This document shows positions 3,986 through 15,991 of a DNA stretch of 28,874 nt, in pieces; position 1 is the first letter of the stretch, and each line of letters begins with the position of its first letter. The stretch comes from a virus. The DNA is taken from IMG/VR virus record IMGVR_UViG_3300044632_002154, positions 1 to 28,874 of that record, one strand, 5' to 3'. Under the pieces are notes generated by a model. The model was not told the DNA's origin. It did not search any database and saw only the letters and a program-made list of their open reading frames with translations. The translations under genes were made by a program, and so were the position numbers.

Positions 3986-4980
3986 AAAATATTAAATTCA
4001 AAAAAGTAATTATATGGGGCTATCCGTTATACTCTCACACGCATTCATTTGTACACTATGGTTGGCACAAAGCATTTAAATCTTTAGGTTATGAGACCTA
4101 TTGGTTTGATGATAATAACTTTCCCGAAGACTTTGACTTTAATGAATGCTTGTTTATAACCGAAGGCTATGCGGATAAAAAAATACCTTTATTAAAAAGC
4201 TCAATATATTTTGTGCATATCTGCGTAGACCCTGCCAAATATTTGGCTGCAGGAAGCAGGCTTGTGGACATCAGGTTTAATCTTAAAAAAACAAAAGATT
4301 TTTCTTATGATTATACAAGACCTGACGACAAATTGACTAAGCTGGACGCTTTTACTTTTTATGAAAAAAACGCAAATGATTTTGCTTTAGTTGAGAAGTA
4401 CAGAAAGGAAGTGTCGGGATATGAGGCTGTTTATATGTACTGGGCTACAGATTTTCTTCCTAGTGATATAGATTTTACTGATGCATTTATCGAGAGAACC
4501 CGTGTTGTGTATCATGTAGGCAGCTACTGGAGCGCAAATAACCGAGAACTTCAGCTTTTCTGGAAATCTTTAAAAGCGCAAGGCTTGTCACTGGAGATAA
4601 GAGACCCTTGGAAAATTAAAACTACCAACGAAGAGGCAGTTAAGTTGGTACAGCAGTCTTATATTGCGCCAGATATTCGTGGCTCTGGAGTTACGTGTGA
4701 TGATTCGTCTGCAGAAGAGTGCAGTCATTTAAACATAGGGTATATACCTTGTAGAATATTTAAAAACATGAGCTATGGTCAACTTGGAATAACAAACTCG
4801 TATGCGGTAAAGGAACTCATGGGAGACTTTGTGGTATATTCTAATGATGTAGAAGAGTTGCTTGAATGCTCCGAACCACATCGAAAAAACTATGAAAAAA
4901 TATTAGCGGGTATGGCTTACGTGAGAGACAACCATACTTTTGTAAATCGCGCGCAAACACTATTGAAGCTTTTAGATTAA
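3982..4980 (+). CDS. Putative glycosyltransferase, GT-B-like
   Basis: This 332-aa protein begins with KVIIWGYPLYSHTHSFVHYGWHKAFKSLGYETYWFDD, an N-terminal pattern seen in virus-encoded glycosyltransferases that resemble GT1/GT4 proteins. The C-terminal half has SYIAPDIRGSGV, then GYIPCRIFKNMSYGQLGITNSYAVKELMGDFVVYSND, which looks like the donor-domain end of GT-B enzymes. No EX7E signature is obvious, so the family is unsure. It overlaps the preceding gene and is followed after one base by the DUF5672 gene, so all three probably share one message. Confidence 0.65.
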   Translation: MKNIKFKKVIIWGYPLYSHTHSFVHYGWHKAFKSLGYETYWFDDNNFPEDFDFNECLFITEGYADKKIPLLKSSIYFVHICVDPAKYLAAGSRLVDIRFNLKKTKDFSYDYTRPDDKLTKLDAFTFYEKNANDFALVEKYRKEVSGYEAVYMYWATDFLPSDIDFTDAFIERTRVVYHVGSYWSANNRELQLFWKSLKAQGLSLEIRDPWKIKTTNEEAVKLVQQSYIAPDIRGSGVTCDDSSAEECSHLNIGYIPCRIFKNMSYGQLGITNSYAVKELMGDFVVYSNDVEELLECSEPHRKNYEKILAGMAYVRDNHTFVNRAQTLLKLLD

Positions 4981-4981
4981 A

Positions 4982-5593
4982 ATGAAATTTAATGAAAACG
5001 TTACCTTGCTGTACTTTGACGGTATTCCTTCAAGATATGAGGTAGGTAAAAAATTATTTAACCGGTTAAAGGAAATTCTAAACTGCGACAAGGCTGTATT
5101 TGTTACTTTGGACGGCGATTACAATGCTGCGTTAAAATGGGAAATTGGTGGAGCTCTTGATTATTTTAATACCTCACACATGCTGAAATGTACATGGGAT
5201 GGATTTGTTATTAACCCTCATCTATGGGACGACTCTTGGCTTGCTTATGATATGATAGGTTCTCCTTGGCCTGAGATGTGTAATTTTAATAACAGAGTAG
5301 GAAATACCGGGTTTTCTTTACAGAGCAGGCACTTCCTGGAGACAGCTAAAAAACACGGAGAAAGCCATTATGCTTATGGCACGCATTCAGATGTGTGGCT
5401 GTGTCAAACCATGTACGAGACCTTCAAGAAAGATGGAGTCAAATATGCTCCGGTGAGTGTGGCGGCTAAGTTTGGCTGGGAGAGTTATATTGAATCAGGA
5501 GAAAATGGTCCTGATAAATCTTTTGGCTTTCATGGTTTTGGAGTAGGTAAGAATAAGGAAACTTACTATAACAATATTTTAAACCCAAAATAA
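4982..5593 (+). CDS. DUF5672-like putative glycosyltransferase
   Basis: The 203-aa sequence carries the pattern I associate with DUF5672, a glycosyltransferase-related family. The elements are DGFVINPHLWDDSWLAYDMIGSPWPE near 78-100, VGNTGFSLQSRHFLE near 112-126, then HSDVWLCQTMYETFKKDGVKYAP, and FGFHGFG near the C-terminus. The family is linked to polysaccharide synthesis but the reaction is not established. It is one base downstream of the preceding transferase gene and closes the sugar island; the next gene is a virion protein behind its own promoter. Confidence 0.75.
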   Translation: MKFNENVTLLYFDGIPSRYEVGKKLFNRLKEILNCDKAVFVTLDGDYNAALKWEIGGALDYFNTSHMLKCTWDGFVINPHLWDDSWLAYDMIGSPWPEMCNFNNRVGNTGFSLQSRHFLETAKKHGESHYAYGTHSDVWLCQTMYETFKKDGVKYAPVSVAAKFGWESYIESGENGPDKSFGFHGFGVGKNKETYYNNILNPK

Positions 5594-5615
5594 CTGAGAG
5601 ACAGCTTTAATTCCT

Positions 5616-5630
5616 TCTGATATAATCAGA
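5616..5630 (+). promoter_or_regulatory. -10 box TATAAT inside a 6-bp inverted repeat
   Basis: TATAAT at 5621-5626 is embedded in TCTGAT-ATA-ATCAGA (arms 5616-5621 and 5625-5630). A dyad directly over the -10 element could be an operator. The first gene downstream starts at 5651, giving a leader of about 18 nt. Confidence 0.4.
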
Positions 5631-5650
5631 GAAAATAACCTTATAAGTAT

Positions 5651-6148
5651 ATGCCTAGAAAAATTACTCACTCTGGTCTTTTAGCTGACAGACCTAACCC
5701 GCTGAGCGTTCCTAACTCGTATTATTTTGCTACTGACGAGGGTAAATACTATTCTGCAGAAGGAGAAAGATGGGTAGAACGCATTGTAGATATCGATGAT
5801 CTTGCACCAGACACAGAAGCTTATCTTGCTTGCGGTATTACTCATACAGGAGCAATTGATCCTATTAAAATAGGAGCTGGTCCTGTAAGCAATTTGAGTG
5901 GTGAAATTACAGTGGCCGGTACATCTCAAAATGTCAGCGAAGCTAACGAAAATAGAAGGTATTTTATACTTCAAAACATCTCTGATACCGATATGTATGT
6001 GGGTGTAGGTTATACTCCTGCAGTAGGCTTAGGTTTGCTAATTGCTAAAAACGGAGGAACTCTTACATGTGATTCTTTTGTTCCTTCAGAAGAAATTAAT
6101 GTTATCTGCAGTACGGTAGGTAAAAAGTTTACAGCATTTGAGGCGTAA
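5651..6148 (+). CDS. Probable virion (tail or fibre-associated) protein
   Basis: This 165-aa protein is not assigned to a named family. Its N-terminal part (PNSYYFATDEGKYYSAEGERWVE) resembles short phage structural proteins. The C-terminal half (RRYFILQNISDTDMYVGVGYTPAVGLGLLIAKNGG) has the beta-rich, Gly-rich look of a virion accessory domain. It lies two bases upstream of a long collagen-type fibre gene behind its own promoter, so it is probably part of the same fibre or adhesin. No catalytic motifs, signal peptide or membrane segment are seen. Confidence 0.55.
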   Translation: MPRKITHSGLLADRPNPLSVPNSYYFATDEGKYYSAEGERWVERIVDIDDLAPDTEAYLACGITHTGAIDPIKIGAGPVSNLSGEITVAGTSQNVSEANENRRYFILQNISDTDMYVGVGYTPAVGLGLLIAKNGGTLTCDSFVPSEEINVICSTVGKKFTAFEA

Positions 6149-6150
6149 TT

Positions 6151-8499
6151 ATGAGAATATTTAATCCTACAACTTCTTCTGGCGGTGCTGGTGGAGAAAC
6201 TGGACCCACAGGAGCAACTGGAGTAACTGGGGCAACTGGAGCCCAGGGCGCAACTGGAGCAGCGCCAGATACTTCTAGTTTTGTACAGAAATCTGGAGAC
6301 ACAATGCAGGGCCGCCTAATCATGGCGGCAACCACAGCGCAACCAAAAGCCAACATTGGCAGCGCTTTGCCTAGCGCTACAATAAACTCGGCTATTGGCG
6401 GCGATCTTTGGATTAGCAATCAAAGCAAACTTACATTTTCTCCAATCACAGGAACTGCTGTGGCTGTTGCTGGGCTTAGTCAATCCAACCAATTTAATCA
6501 GCAACAAACCATTGGCGCTGGCACAGCGGTAACCTCGCTTGTGGTTAGCCCAAGCGGCACAGGTCGCGCTGCTACATTTGCTGCCGCATCCACGGCTCCA
6601 GCCGTTGCCATCACTCAGACTGGCGCAGGTGAAGCCTTCCGTGTTGAAGATGAAACCAGCCCGGATGCAACTCCGTTTGTAATTTCGTCTACTGGTCGTG
6701 TTGGGATTGGCGTTATTCCAGATGCAGAAGTTGCTCTTTCCGTAGATGCTGGGGGAATTAAATTTGGGGATGGCACTATCCAAACAACAGCTACACTTAC
6801 AGGACCTACCGGAGCTACTGGTGCAGGTGCTACTGGCGCAACTGGAGAAGTAGGCTCTACAGGCGCTACGGGCCCGCAGGGAATTCAAGGACCTGGAGGA
6901 GGAGGAGGCGCGGGAGGATTGCTGTTTTATTTAAACCAGAACACAGCTCCAGACAACCCTACAGGATTGCCTACAACTAGCTCTGTAGTCACTGGGTTTG
7001 CAGTAAAAGAACTGGGTAGAATTGCCGACACAGTTCAAACAACTGTAACTACCCAAAATTTACCTACTGACGCATTTAATCTTGTAGCTGGGTTTGTCAG
7101 TGATGTCCAAGATCCTAATATCACAACTATCCCTCCTGGTTTATGGGATTTAAATTTCTGGGCTAGCAGCACAGCTAGTTATAACCATCAAACTATCGTA
7201 CAGGTCAAAGCCTATGTTTATAATGGCATAACACTGGGCGAGCCTTTTGCTACGTCTGATGAGTTGTACATCTATGATCCCAGTGTTGTTGCTCAATACA
7301 CAGCAAATCTTGTAGTTGGAGCAGGAGTAACAATAACATCCAGCGATCGTATCTACATCGAGATATGGGCTAAGGGTTCGTCCCCCAACTACACACTCAC
7401 ACTTAAATTTGGTGCAGTCACTCCTACGCATCTTCATACAACTATTCCTAGTGTAAGTGGTACAGGTATCGTGAAAGTTGAAAATGGTCTTTTCAAAACA
7501 CCTGCTTCACTCATTGTTAATGCTGACATTGCTACAAATGCTGACATAGCTATCAGCAAAATAGCTGGGCTTACCCCGCAGGCTATAGGAGCATTCAGTA
7601 CCTCTGATATTGTTGCTATTGAAAATGGCGGAACTGGCAAAAGCGCTCAAGAATTTGCACGTATTGAGATGGGAGGTTTTCAACAAGTAGACTGGGCGCA
7701 AACATCTATAGTTACGGGCGCCATGAACACAAGCGTAACCCCTAACACATTAACGTACACCAATCCCGGATTGCTTACATTTGATGGAGGAAGTCCAAGT
7801 GTTGGGGATACTGTTTTTTTGTCAGGGCAAACATCAACTTCAACTCCTAATACAGCAGCGCAGGGTCCATGGGAGGTTGTCACAGTAGGTACGGCGCAGG
7901 TTAATACTGTTTTAAAGCGTCCCTCTTGGTTTAGCGGCGTGGTTAAAAACATTGTACCTTGCGTGATTAAATATGGTCAAAATAATGCAGGTATTGTAAG
8001 AACTGTAGTGGGACCTACAACTCTAACTAAAACTGATATAACTGTAGGCACTTCTCTATTAACTGCGGTATCAATATCGCAAAGATCTTCAAATTACACC
8101 TCAAGCGGAGGTACTTTAAGTGGACGCGCTACATTTGCGGCAGGTACCGCCTCTACAAATCCTATTTCCTTTCAAGCAAGCACAACGCAATTAGCTACTC
8201 TACAAGCTCATGCTCTCGAGTGGGATAATAATTTGATGTATATTACGCCCGGAGCTTTGGCTACAGCTAATCTTAGAAGAACAATTAATGCTGGCTATAT
8301 TCCTGCATTAACTAGCGCAGATATTCTTACTTTGGGGGCAGCGCAAGCTACAATACAGGCTAACGCATTGACATCTACAATGCATGGCGTATTAGGTCAG
8401 ACAATTCTAGATGCTGTAAACGATGCTTTGTATGTTTGTACAGGTACAGGCGCGGCAGGTGCAGCTAAATGGAGAAAATTAACGCTATCTACTTTCTAG
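6151..8499 (+). CDS. Collagen-like phage tail fibre/adhesin
   Basis: At 782 aa this is the longest protein in the window. A short collagen-like run (GETGPTGATGVTGATGAQG, residues 15-36) is followed by FVQKSGDTMQGRL, a repeat unit seen in many phage fibres. A long Ser/Thr/Ala-rich beta-type region leads to a second Gly-X-Y run (from GPTGATG to [10 protein letters not shown], around 215-255) and a C-terminal head. A real Shine-Dalgarno (GAGG, seven bases before ATG) is present, unusual for this window. It is two bases after the preceding virion gene. Collagen-like segments normally trimerise fibres; host binding is inferred from gene type. Confidence 0.85.
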   Translation: MRIFNPTTSSGGAGGETGPTGATGVTGATGAQGATGAAPDTSSFVQKSGDTMQGRLIMAATTAQPKANIGSALPSATINSAIGGDLWISNQSKLTFSPITGTAVAVAGLSQSNQFNQQQTIGAGTAVTSLVVSPSGTGRAATFAAASTAPAVAITQTGAGEAFRVEDETSPDATPFVISSTGRVGIGVIPDAEVALSVDAGGIKFGDGTIQTTATLTGPTGATGAGATGATGEVGSTGATGPQGIQGPGGGGGAGGLLFYLNQNTAPDNPTGLPTTSSVVTGFAVKELGRIADTVQTTVTTQNLPTDAFNLVAGFVSDVQDPNITTIPPGLWDLNFWASSTASYNHQTIVQVKAYVYNGITLGEPFATSDELYIYDPSVVAQYTANLVVGAGVTITSSDRIYIEIWAKGSSPNYTLTLKFGAVTPTHLHTTIPSVSGTGIVKVENGLFKTPASLIVNADIATNADIAISKIAGLTPQAIGAFSTSDIVAIENGGTGKSAQEFARIEMGGFQQVDWAQTSIVTGAMNTSVTPNTLTYTNPGLLTFDGGSPSVGDTVFLSGQTSTSTPNTAAQGPWEVVTVGTAQVNTVLKRPSWFSGVVKNIVPCVIKYGQNNAGIVRTVVGPTTLTKTDITVGTSLLTAVSISQRSSNYTSSGGTLSGRATFAAGTASTNPISFQASTTQLATLQAHALEWDNNLMYITPGALATANLRRTINAGYIPALTSADILTLGAAQATIQANALTSTMHGVLGQTILDAVNDALYVCTGTGAAGAAKWRKLTLSTF

Positions 8500-8676: not shown

Positions 8677-9329
8677 TGAGCCTCTTATCAGACAATATAA
8701 TCAAGCTGGCAAAATCGCTTGAATTAAAGCGTCTGATCGAGGCTAAAAAAAAGTCGGATAATAACGACTATGCTGGTAAGAATAGAATACTAGCCGACCT
8801 CCTTCAAAAGAGTCCTAGGCAATTTAAAGTGGATTCTGAGTTAGAAAGCGGAAAGTATGTAGGCATAACCCACAAGCCTTCGGGGTTTCAAATTCACGCC
8901 CCCAGGATGCTTGTTCCTGTGGGAATAGAAAACACAATGAAAAAAGCAGAAAAACAAGAAAGGGTTAGGGTGATCATTCCCTATAAAGGACAATATTTGC
9001 TAGAGAGATTAGCAAACCCGCAGTGGAAAGATAACTTTGGGAAAAGGAGGTTTATTGGTGGCGGAATTGAAGGAAATGAAACTCCTCAGCAGGCAGCCAG
9101 CAGAGAGCTAATGGAGGAGCTAGGAGTTGCTGTCAAGCCTGGCAGGTTTAGATATGTAGGCGTAGACCCTGCCAGTGGCCATCATTACCTAAGATTACCA
9201 AAACACAATATTCAACCTGGTAGATATAAAGCATCTGTGGGTTCAGATCCGTTTATTCATCTTGAGCACGGATTGCCTCATGGCTCAGATTACATTGGCC
9301 CAGATATCAAAACATTAAAAAAACATTGA
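8676..9329 (+). CDS. Nudix hydrolase with N-terminal extension
   Basis: Nudix enzymes hydrolyse a nucleoside diphosphate linked to another moiety, using divalent metal. The 217-aa protein has a complete Nudix box, GX5EX7REUXEEXGU, at residues 129-151 (G129, E135, R143, E144, E147, E148, G150). An extension of about 95 residues, helical and basic at its start, precedes the domain and is unlike plain Nudix housekeeping enzymes. The segment ends with a His/Gly-rich tail. The start overlaps the stop of the small 49-aa gene. Phage Nudix proteins can act on mutagenic nucleotides, dinucleotide alarmones or caps; the substrate here is unknown. Confidence 0.9.
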   Translation: MSLLSDNIIKLAKSLELKRLIEAKKKSDNNDYAGKNRILADLLQKSPRQFKVDSELESGKYVGITHKPSGFQIHAPRMLVPVGIENTMKKAEKQERVRVIIPYKGQYLLERLANPQWKDNFGKRRFIGGGIEGNETPQQAASRELMEELGVAVKPGRFRYVGVDPASGHHYLRLPKHNIQPGRYKASVGSDPFIHLEHGLPHGSDYIGPDIKTLKKH

Positions 9330-10468: not shown

Positions 10469-10496
10469 AAAAGGGCAGGTGCGGCTGCTCTTTTTT
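10469..10496 (+). terminator. Intrinsic terminator after 10460
   Basis: AAAAGGGCAG (10469-10478) pairs with CTGCTCTTTT (10485-10494) over ten pairs with one G-U, around a six-base loop, and runs into a T tract. The tract continues as TTTTTTAGCTATCAGACA, a tail shared with two other rightward terminators here. Confidence 0.8.
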
Positions 10497-11312: not shown

Positions 11313-11414
11313 ATGAAGACACTTGCATATATTTTTATGGGCTTAGGTATAATTATTTCTAGCGCCGTAGGTACACTGGTAGCTTTAATTACGCTAATCA
11401 GAATATTTTTTTAA
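11313..11414 (+). CDS. Single-span small membrane protein, 33 aa
   Basis: ATG at 11313 opens 33 codons. After MKT the chain is almost entirely hydrophobic (YIFMGLGIIISSAVGTLVAL) and forms one membrane helix. The TAA stop shares its final A with the ATG of the next gene (TAATG at 11412-11416), which argues that it is translated. It follows phoH after one base. Small hydrophobic phage proteins of this kind can be holins or membrane anchors, but nothing here proves either. Confidence 0.55.
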   Translation: MKTLAYIFMGLGIIISSAVGTLVALITLIRIFF

Positions 11415-12025
11415 TGAAAAAAGATCTGTGTATATTTGCGATATTTGCATTCATTTGCCTAAGCGATATCTTTCCAGGGCAACATGAAGACGATTCGTAT
11501 ATTATACGCAGAATATATTTGGATGTACTGGGTGTAGTACCTTTGCCTCACGAAATAGACTGGTATTGCGTCTATAATGATAATGGCTATAATATGGCCA
11601 TAGAATGGGTATTATCCAGACCTAGAGATAAATGGACTCAAGGCTGGGAAAACATGAACGAAGAAGACGTTCGGAAAACTTTGGCTTCTCAAAGTTACAA
11701 AAATTTTAAAAAAATGCCTTTGAGTAGAGAGCAATTAAATAAGCAGTTATGCTATTTGGCGGGAGAAGAATATACTGACGATTATGCTAGTGTTTTGAGA
11801 GCTAGAGGCAAATTAATTAAATATGCGCTGGAAGCTACAGACAGCGAGGTGGATGCTATAGACCACTTAGCATATCAGCTGATGAGCAGAGTTACCAATA
11901 TAAATGAAGCTAATTATCTTAAAGGAAAACTAAAAGATTATAAGCAAACAATTAAAAACGAACAGCTCGCCTGGGAATGTGTCCTAGACGAGCTGTTGGG
12001 TTTTGAGGATGTTAGAAATAGATAG
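11414..12025 (+). CDS. Hypothetical exported or membrane-anchored protein
   Basis: The 203-aa protein starts MKKDLCIFAIFAFICLSDIFPG, which looks like a signal peptide or N-terminal anchor. The following block IIRRIYLDVLGVVPLPHEIDWY, then NMAIEWVLSRPRDKW, recalls the start of DUF1549/planctomycete-type domains ('RR-x-YLD-x-x-G-x-x-P-x-x-x-EI'), but the match is short and should not be read as a family assignment. The rest is helical and acidic. It is translationally coupled to the 33-aa membrane peptide and ends one base from a convergent gene, with no terminator hairpin visible between them. Confidence 0.6.
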   Translation: MKKDLCIFAIFAFICLSDIFPGQHEDDSYIIRRIYLDVLGVVPLPHEIDWYCVYNDNGYNMAIEWVLSRPRDKWTQGWENMNEEDVRKTLASQSYKNFKKMPLSREQLNKQLCYLAGEEYTDDYASVLRARGKLIKYALEATDSEVDAIDHLAYQLMSRVTNINEANYLKGKLKDYKQTIKNEQLAWECVLDELLGFEDVRNR

Positions 12026-12026
12026 T

Positions 12027-12260
12027 CTATGCGTAAGCTAAAAGACTGTTAGGATTCTTCATATCTAGAATACCGTGAGCATTATACAAAATCACAGGTT
12101 TAATATTATTAGCTTTTGATTGTACAGTACCTGGAATTTCTGTAGGAAGAGAAGTTTTTGGTAATGAGTCAGATACATTGACAACTGCAGCTACTAGAGG
12201 CTGTACAGCCATATAATTACTTACTTGAGGGGAGGTTATAGCGATAGGTGGGATAGACAT
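12027..12260 (-). CDS. Small hypothetical protein, 77 aa
   Basis: This protein (MSIPPIAITSPQVSNYM to NPNSLLAYA) is Pro/Ser/Val-rich, without charge clusters, and looks like a small virion-type or extended peptide. No family is recognised. Its promoter is the best -35/-10 pair in the window (TTGACG, 16 bases, TAATAT), with only six bases between the -10 box and the ATG. It can therefore be made separately from the frameshift gene that ends at 12299. Confidence 0.55.
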   Translation of the reverse strand: MSIPPIAITSPQVSNYMAVQPLVAAVVNVSDSLPKTSLPTEIPGTVQSKANNIKPVILYNAHGILDMKNPNSLLAYA

Positions 12261-14032: not shown

Positions 14033-14080
14033 AGCTACCAGTCATTCTCTATACCCCCCCTGTGTAACTAACTAGTCTTG

Positions 14081-14089
14081 TGGTATAGT
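14081..14089 (+). promoter_or_regulatory. Extended -10 promoter TGGTATAGT of the structured RNA
   Basis: It has TGn at 14081-14083 and TATAGT at 14084-14089, the same form as the protein-gene promoters. Transcription should start near 14096. No start codon with a plausible reading frame follows for over 300 bases. Confidence 0.6.
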
Positions 14090-14095
14090 AATTTG

Positions 14096-14450
14096 AATCG
14101 TAGGTTTATAGCTATAGGCTGATAGAAGCGTACCCTTGACATACATACATTTGAATATGCAGGTACGGGCATATTCAACACTGTCTTATACACAGTACAC
14201 TCGCCGAAGTTGCAGCTAGGGAACTACGGCTACAGTTAAACAACTCAACAAACCTACGAGGCGAGCGTAGAGAGGTTGAGAGTGTTCTGTAGTCATGAAA
14301 AGGGCTGAAATGCTTGCCTAGCTAAAGATGGAGCTGCCAAGACTCATCTAAAAACCCGGACTAGTGGCAACAATCACTATGGGCTAAAATCTCCAACCGC
14401 TGAGTGCGGCAATGGAGTAAAAGACTATCCTAACCGATAGTCTTTTTTTA
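14096..14450 (+). ncRNA. Large structured noncoding RNA, about 355 nt, unrecognised class
   Basis: This region has a promoter, a terminator and no credible reading frame, but many complementary segments. Helices seen: TTGAATATGC/GCATATTCAA (14151-14160, 14169-14178); ACTGT/ACAGT (14180-14184, 14192-14196); AGTTG/CAACT (14208-14212, 14241-14245); CTCAAC/GTTGAG (14244-14249, 14275-14280) enclosing CTACG/CGTAG; CTTG-AGCT/AGCT-CAAG (about 14313-14340); CCC-TAGTG/CACTA-GGG (about 14355-14383); CTCCA-CCGC/GCGG-TGGAG (14391-14417); and the terminator stem. Two hairpin loops can pair with upstream segments: GGTACG (14162-14167) with CGTACC (14129-14134), and GGCGAG (14260-14265) with CTCGCC (14200-14205), forming pseudoknots. 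AACACT/AGTGTT (14177-14182, 14281-14286) could close the central domain. It lacks a tRNA-like T arm and CCA end, and the RNase P and group I core sequences. The ends are estimates. Confidence 0.7.
14419..14449 (+). terminator. Intrinsic terminator of the structured RNA
   Basis: AAAAGACTATC (14419-14429) pairs perfectly with GATAGTCTTTT (14436-14446) around ctaacc and leads into a seven-T run. It is followed by AGCTATCAGACA, the shared tail. Confidence 0.85.
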
Positions 14451-14470
14451 GCTATCAGACAAAAAGGAAA

Positions 14471-15723: not shown

Positions 15724-15921
15724 ATGAAGCAGCGGAAAGAAAAATTACTGAACCCTCCAGAGTCATCTCACGGAGGTCCAGGGGCGGAAAGACGTATAGC
15801 CCTACCCAAAATAACTAAGCCTAGGAACATAGACCTCCCAGATTGGGAGGTAAAGCTATTAGAAAACCCTGGAGCAATCCAGGGCTTAATCTACACAAAA
15901 GATGGTAGATTAAGAAGATAA
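15724..15921 (+). CDS. Hypothetical basic protein, 65 aa, monocistronic
   Basis: This is a small Lys/Arg/Pro-rich protein (MKQRKEKLLNPPESSHGGPG to LIYTKDGRLRR) with a short hydrophobic strand near the end. It could be disordered or bind nucleic acid, but no family is recognised. It is the only gene between its promoter-hairpin unit and a strong terminator, matching the arrangement of the gene at 13651. Confidence 0.6.
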   Translation: MKQRKEKLLNPPESSHGGPGAERRIALPKITKPRNIDLPDWEVKLLENPGAIQGLIYTKDGRLRR

Positions 15922-15938
15922 CAAAAACCGGTTTTTGT
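15921..15938. repeat. 18-bp perfect palindrome ACAAAAACCGGTTTTTGT
   Basis: The dyad begins at the last base of the preceding stop codon and sits just before the terminator stem at 15946. With no loop it is a poor hairpin. It could be a protein-binding site or help leftward termination by adding a T-rich tract. Confidence 0.5.
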
Positions 15939-15945
15939 ACAAAAA

Positions 15946-15983
15946 CCCCGGCCCAAATTAAGGGCCGGGGAATCTTTTTTTTA
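15946..15983. terminator. Bidirectional intrinsic terminator between convergent genes
   Basis: CCCCGGCCC (15946-15954) pairs with GGGCCGGGG (15962-15970) around a seven-base loop. Rightward it is followed by AATCTTTTTTTT; leftward by TTTTTGT. It serves both the 65-aa gene and the nrd operon. Confidence 0.85.
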
Positions 15984-15991
15984 GCTGTTGG

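Follow-up and report, generated by a model that had tools for sequence, protein, structure and literature searches.

Genomic context of the candidate RNA

The window, i.e. the whole stretch of 28,874 bases analysed here, comes from a large tailed phage and is recorded as a virus fragment in IMG/VR. It carries genes for PhoH, for both ribonucleotide reductase subunits, for nudix and amidase proteins and for collagen-like proteins, and its closest relatives are metagenomic phages of approximately 198 to 204 kb. A weak Pfam match to DUF1549/PSCyt2, under the cut-off of that model, is found at positions 11414-12025; the domain is one known from planctomycetes, which gives a thin hint at the host of the window phage. 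The protein adjoining the RNA cassette, used for a host search in GTDB, retrieved no relative. On the + strand, positions 14095-14448 hold a predicted non-coding RNA of approximately 354 nt, flanked by a promoter and a terminator that are both conserved as types.

Promoter, terminator and coding content

As an earlier note on this DNA had proposed, the unit is preceded by an extended -10 element (TGG-TATAGT; 14081-14089, + strand). This element and a C-tract at 14054-14060 (+), which is common to the promoters of the cassette class described below and recurs at the syntenic slot of relatives, lie in a 60-bp block (14054-14113) with 93% identity to the syntenic place in the 204-kb relative and 82% identity in the 198-kb relative. 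The block takes in the promoter as well as 19 nt at the 5' end of the transcript, which would start near 14095 (GAATC). A scan for sigma-70 promoters listed no full -35/-10 promoter at the 14081-14089 site.

Approximately 320 nt separate the promoter signal from that of an intrinsic terminator at 14419-14449 (+), which consists of GACTATC-CTAACC-GATAGTC (11-bp stem including A/T flanks) and T7 and has homologues upstream of phoH in relatives. In the alignment of these homologues all 35 of 35 cells of the terminator core are paired, which is not the case for slid versions, and two of the seven core pairs are compensatory, i.e. changed on both sides. Covariation support exists for no other part of the RNA, and, as read from the alignment, it argues for a terminator and not for an RNA class. 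The terminator runs into the tail TTTTTTAGCTATCAG (14444-14458, +), which the window contains three times (once as TACCAG) and relatives approximately 35 times. A hairpin followed by TTTTTTAGCTATCAG is the terminator type throughout the clade, and the strong terminator claimed in the earlier note is thus borne out. The signature lies at 10491, 14027 and 14444 of the window and, here as in relatives, usually directly ahead of the next promoter; together with its hairpin it might act as a point where recombination exchanges cassettes. Several terminator hairpins in relatives display loops resembling the T-loop of tRNA (GGTTCAATTCC and similar), namely at L002 8790-8830, L042 ~9020-9055 (-), L074 ~5310-5345 and G001 ~54020-54050.

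The + strand of the unit contains no open reading frame (ORF) longer than 27 aa, the longest overlapping one being a 27-aa frame with a TTG start (14136-14219). Translated searches of the RNA region in six frames against the relatives and PHROGs revealed neither similarity nor an ORF remnant, and a profile search of the region for a coding signal was negative. Codon scoring was uninformative, as the accessory ORFs found at this slot in relatives score like non-coding frames. As far as sequence can tell, the unit is non-coding, in agreement with the earlier claim that it lacks a credible reading frame. A messenger for a micropeptide would be the alternative, translated for example from the 27-aa TTG frame or from MKRAEMLA at 14295-14319, whose frame (ATG AAA AGG GCT GAA ATG CTT GCC TAG) has TAGTC ahead of it as at the resume site of tmRNA. 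This frame is very short, however, with no homologue to show its conservation, and the RNA has no tRNA-like domain, so that trans-translation would not take place; we consider a micropeptide messenger highly improbable. An antisense RNA from the opposite strand was considered, given that the fold energy is symmetric, and rejected, since it is the + strand that carries the conserved promoter and the T-run. From its conserved signals the unit would be transcribed and terminated, consistent with the independent, non-coding and structured transcription unit of about 355 nt that had been claimed.

The accessory slot in related phages

Comparison of the window with its relatives revealed that the block 14054-14113 and the sequence from 14443 on are conserved, while the content between them is unrelated. 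The slot of the relatives is occupied by ORFs of 141 aa in G001 (L002), 67 aa in G003 (L003), 200 aa in L036, 67 aa plus 200 aa in L040 and L058, and 67 aa plus 141 aa in L042; the cassette is absent at the slot in L039, L043/L044, L045-L047, L052 and L063. Using a promoter weight matrix, 12 distinct strong sites were obtained among the window and the related phages examined. All 11 of the 11 other promoters of the class are followed within 204 nt by an ORF of 44 aa or more, while the window promoter has none within 500 nt and is followed by the terminator at 349 nt. The RNA unit is the only ORF-less member of this accessory-cassette family among the 12 promoter sites. As expected of a phage cargo unit, it has its own promoter and terminator and is swapped at one slot among relatives. 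In L074, positions 4850-6900 hold small accessory ORFs in tandem, each with the same promoter class, a near-identical 5' leader and its own terminator.

That all other cassettes of the promoter class encode proteins, and that the slot turns over quickly, would fit a dead cassette, from which an accessory protein gene has been deleted or has decayed and in which the leftover, non-functional sequence folds by chance. Against this main rival, which we regard as unlikely, are the intact promoter and terminator and the lack of an ORF remnant in any of the six frames against relatives or PHROGs. The structural evidence, presented next, bears on it from both sides.

Predicted fold of the unit

The minimum-free-energy fold of the unit is -107 kcal/mol. 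The z-score of the whole unit is -3.6 to -4.0 with the terminator and -2.2 without it, the latter surplus being equal on the opposite strand. Approximately 20 helices are predicted at P>0.3, most of them above 0.7, where the earlier note had counted at least eight. A long closing helix of 25 pairs is predicted between 14109-14137 (+; TAGCT, AGGC, AAGCGT, CCCTT; P 0.83-0.93) and 14300-14324 (+; AAGGG, ATGCTT, GCCT, AGCTA), a length reached in 3 of 300 shuffles. It would enclose hairpin 1 (14151-14178, +; 10 bp, loop AGGTACGG, P 0.95), hairpin 2 (14180-14196, +; ACTGT/ACAGT, P 0.79), hairpin 3 (14203-14230, +; GCCG/CGGC plus AGTT/AACT, P 0.98) and hairpin 4 (14244-14280, +; CTCAAC/GTTGAG plus CTACG/CGTAG, loop AGGCGAG, P 0.90-0.99). 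The closed 5' domain (14107-14326), whose boundaries were chosen after the fold was seen, has a z-score of -3.2. The 3' domain (14326-14417, +; z -2.3) comprises three hairpins at 14326-14349, 14355-14383 and 14391-14417, joined by UAAA-type linkers.

Across the window, tiles of 220 nt have a mean z-score of -0.57 (sd 1.4). Of the 131 tiles, five are at or below -3.2, one of them overlapping the RNA, and the tile starting at 14301, which covers the 3' part of the RNA and the terminator, ranks third of 131; several other tiles, mostly at gene ends, come close to or exceed the tile of the RNA in structure. The RNA is, by these predictions, more structured than typical sequence of the window, though not uniquely so, and the surplus is modest. 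The modest surplus would be in line with chance folding in a dead cassette, but the closing helix and the paired loops described below exceed what shuffled sequences provide. Very stable hairpins were also found at convergent gene ends at 11960-12060 (z -5.1) and 15900-15990 (z -3.2); relative to length, these are stronger than the window RNA.

Putative pseudoknots

The earlier note had claimed two pseudoknots. For the first, CGTACC at 14129-14134 is exactly complementary to the loop GGTACG (14162-14167) of hairpin 1; for the second, CTCGCC at 14200-14205 (+) is exactly complementary to the loop GGCGAG at 14260-14265. Two loops, each with a perfectly complementary hexamer at most 60 nt away, are as many as were found in only 2 of 300 shuffles. 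Both complementarities thus stand as exact and rare, but both compete with nested helices of the predicted fold. Pseudoknot 2 would take bases from the nested helices GCCG/CGGC, making hairpin 3 its alternative, and ACACTC/GAGTGT; its formation appears plausible, because freeing these bases costs a calculated 2.6 kcal/mol while the duplex returns -9.5 kcal/mol. Pseudoknot 1 takes bases of the closing helix, part of which it would break, and its formation appears marginal, because the cost of 5.3 kcal/mol stands against -7.3 kcal/mol for the duplex, before any loop penalty. A six-pair set that the earlier note took to close the central domain is indeed predicted between ACACTC (14197-14202) and GAGTGT (14280-14285) with P=0.45. 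It has three bases in common with pseudoknot 2, however, so that the two cannot coexist whole, yet the note had counted both. A switch between the competing features is conceivable.

Searches for homologues and for known RNA families

A scan of the window RNA against Rfam 15, at the gathering threshold and at E<=10, returned only a chance fragment of HOTAIR_2; at neither setting did the covariance models of ROOL, GOLLD or OLE match, and none of the Rfam covariance models for RNase P, 6S RNA, group I intron or riboswitches matched the RNA. The earlier claim that the RNA does not match tmRNA, RNase P, 6S, group I, GOLLD or ROOL is thereby upheld for every model used. By blastn, no match was found in phages, and plasmids yielded one chance match of 31 nt (E 0.3). 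No homologue was detected in 36 related records by BLAST or by single-sequence covariance model, and the single-sequence models R1 (5' domain) and R3 (3' domain) matched nothing but the window itself among 31-57 loci or records; with approximately 0.59 bits per position in these models and loose heuristic filters in the whole-record searches, distant homologues could be missed. Patterns conserving the loops gave four matches in IMG/VR, none of which was homologous by nhmmer, and scans for an exact 25-mer and for a 23-of-25 pattern gave none. Four matches of a 19-mer in GTDB genomes were rejected, the best (L088) lying inside a 273-aa ORF and the others showing no similarity beyond the word, as were weak matches in G001 at 68115, which lie within an apparent tail-fibre-type coding sequence.

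Because no homologue was found in the collections searched, no selection on the fold could be demonstrated; the absence of an RNA homologue would likewise fit a dead cassette. The new class proposed in the earlier note is not supported, with this RNA as its one known example. Its likening to ornate phage RNAs is not supported either: the RNA is approximately 354 nt long, short of the approximately 600-800 nt or more of ROOL and GOLLD, its pseudoknots and six-pair helix are partly mutually exclusive, its structure surplus is modest, and the 28.9-kb window contains no tRNA (0 genes by ARAGORN). In the relative G001, tRNAs are located near 29 kb and 49 kb and the slot at 96.8 kb.

A ROOL example measures approximately 659 nt, and many GOLLD RNAs exceed 800 nt and have a conserved 3' region (PMC12286853). 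Like ROOL, the window RNA would be a structured non-coding RNA of a phage or prophage; ROOL, however, is a conserved class, often though not by strict definition near tRNA islands, and about twice as long. With GOLLD it shares the phage-borne, structured nature and the pseudoknots, putative in the window RNA, but it differs in length, in the conserved 3' region of GOLLD and in having no Rfam match. A further mark of the ornate large RNAs (ROOL, GOLLD, OLE) is assembly into homo-oligomeric particles made of RNA only. Similar length, pseudoknots and a short frame following TAGTC recall tmRNA (ssrA), but a tmRNA or a tmRNA-like resume site was rejected, as there is no tRNA-like domain with T-loop and CCA and neither ARAGORN nor Rfam gave a match. 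The window RNA also lacks similarity to the tmRNA of its relatives. The latter are located at L024 11813-12211 (G001) and L032 14682-15075 (G003), each with seven tRNAs, and their predicted tag peptides are unusually long (31 and 30 aa, ending in LLAA). We therefore file the window RNA as an orphan phage non-coding RNA candidate outside the ROOL, GOLLD and tmRNA families.

Structured leaders at the slot of relatives

As a by-product of the comparison, a structured leader of approximately 110 nt (GCCGAAAGG.. AUUGAAGACA.. long hairpin) was identified between the promoter and the ORF in L003 (11585-11715, -) and L042 (9745-9873, -); its consensus fold comprises 33 pairs, of which 8 are compensatory, i.e. 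changed on both sides. A covariance model added a third member in L049 (6812-6946, -; 33.6 bits, E 2e-4), again behind the same promoter class and ahead of an ORF; the ORFs that follow the three copies are unrelated. An Rfam search with the G003 copy gave no match. The case for a new structured element is stronger for this leader than for the window RNA. A second conserved leader, composed of the hairpin GCCGAAAGGC and a hairpin with loop GCCTCCA, occurs at L002 8270-8360, L036 1690-1807 (-) and L040 956-1045 (-). Its loop can pair with TGGAGGC, which precedes the start codon by approximately 20 nt, and by sequence this pairing can form either an H-type pseudoknot or a helix sequestering the Shine-Dalgarno sequence.

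The window RNA might accordingly be read as a cis element of leader type, i.e. a structured 5' leader comparable to those found at this slot in relatives but lacking its gene. In favour of this reading, the same promoter is followed in relatives by two different structured leaders, and the transcript has its first 19 nt in common with relatives. With the leader of L003, L042 and L049 the window RNA shares promoter class, genomic slot and structured nature, but that leader is an element of approximately 110 nt ahead of an ORF, with another sequence and fold. Neither leader matches the window RNA in sequence or structure, and homology was rejected on the basis that the leader model R2 has no match in the window. 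Moreover, a strong terminator and then an antisense gene follow the RNA, leaving nothing to regulate in cis except termination itself. We regard a cis element as improbable.

Discussion

The accessory genes that phages exchange act on the host, and searches for them almost always look for proteins. On balance, we lean towards the reading that the unit at 14095-14448 is a self-contained phage gene with an RNA product, carried as accessory cargo and acting in trans. The phage would make this RNA from a promoter of the class that also controls small accessory genes. The RNA would fold into a closed 5' domain of approximately 215 nt, probably with pseudoknot 2, followed by three 3' hairpins, would end at the terminator and would act as a folded RNA; action in trans is suggested by the terminator and by the antisense gene beyond it. 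Most likely it would bind a host protein or RNA and serve host takeover or counter-defence, a guess as to target and role that we make because the slot holds non-essential, swappable cargo. It is a further, tentative idea, which we would not expect to hold, that the unit belongs to a new class of trans-acting phage RNAs. Such RNAs would measure approximately 350 nt, combine a closed domain containing a pseudoknot with three hairpins, be carried from one large phage to another as cargo, and target a host factor or a defence system.

If homologues of the RNA covary, it would be a directly testable new phage RNA; if they do not, it would be an example of how readily a chance fold in an empty cassette can look ornate. 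A cassette with an RNA product and the same promoter and terminator type as its protein-coding counterparts would suggest that RNA effectors share the slots of protein genes and are missed by gene callers.
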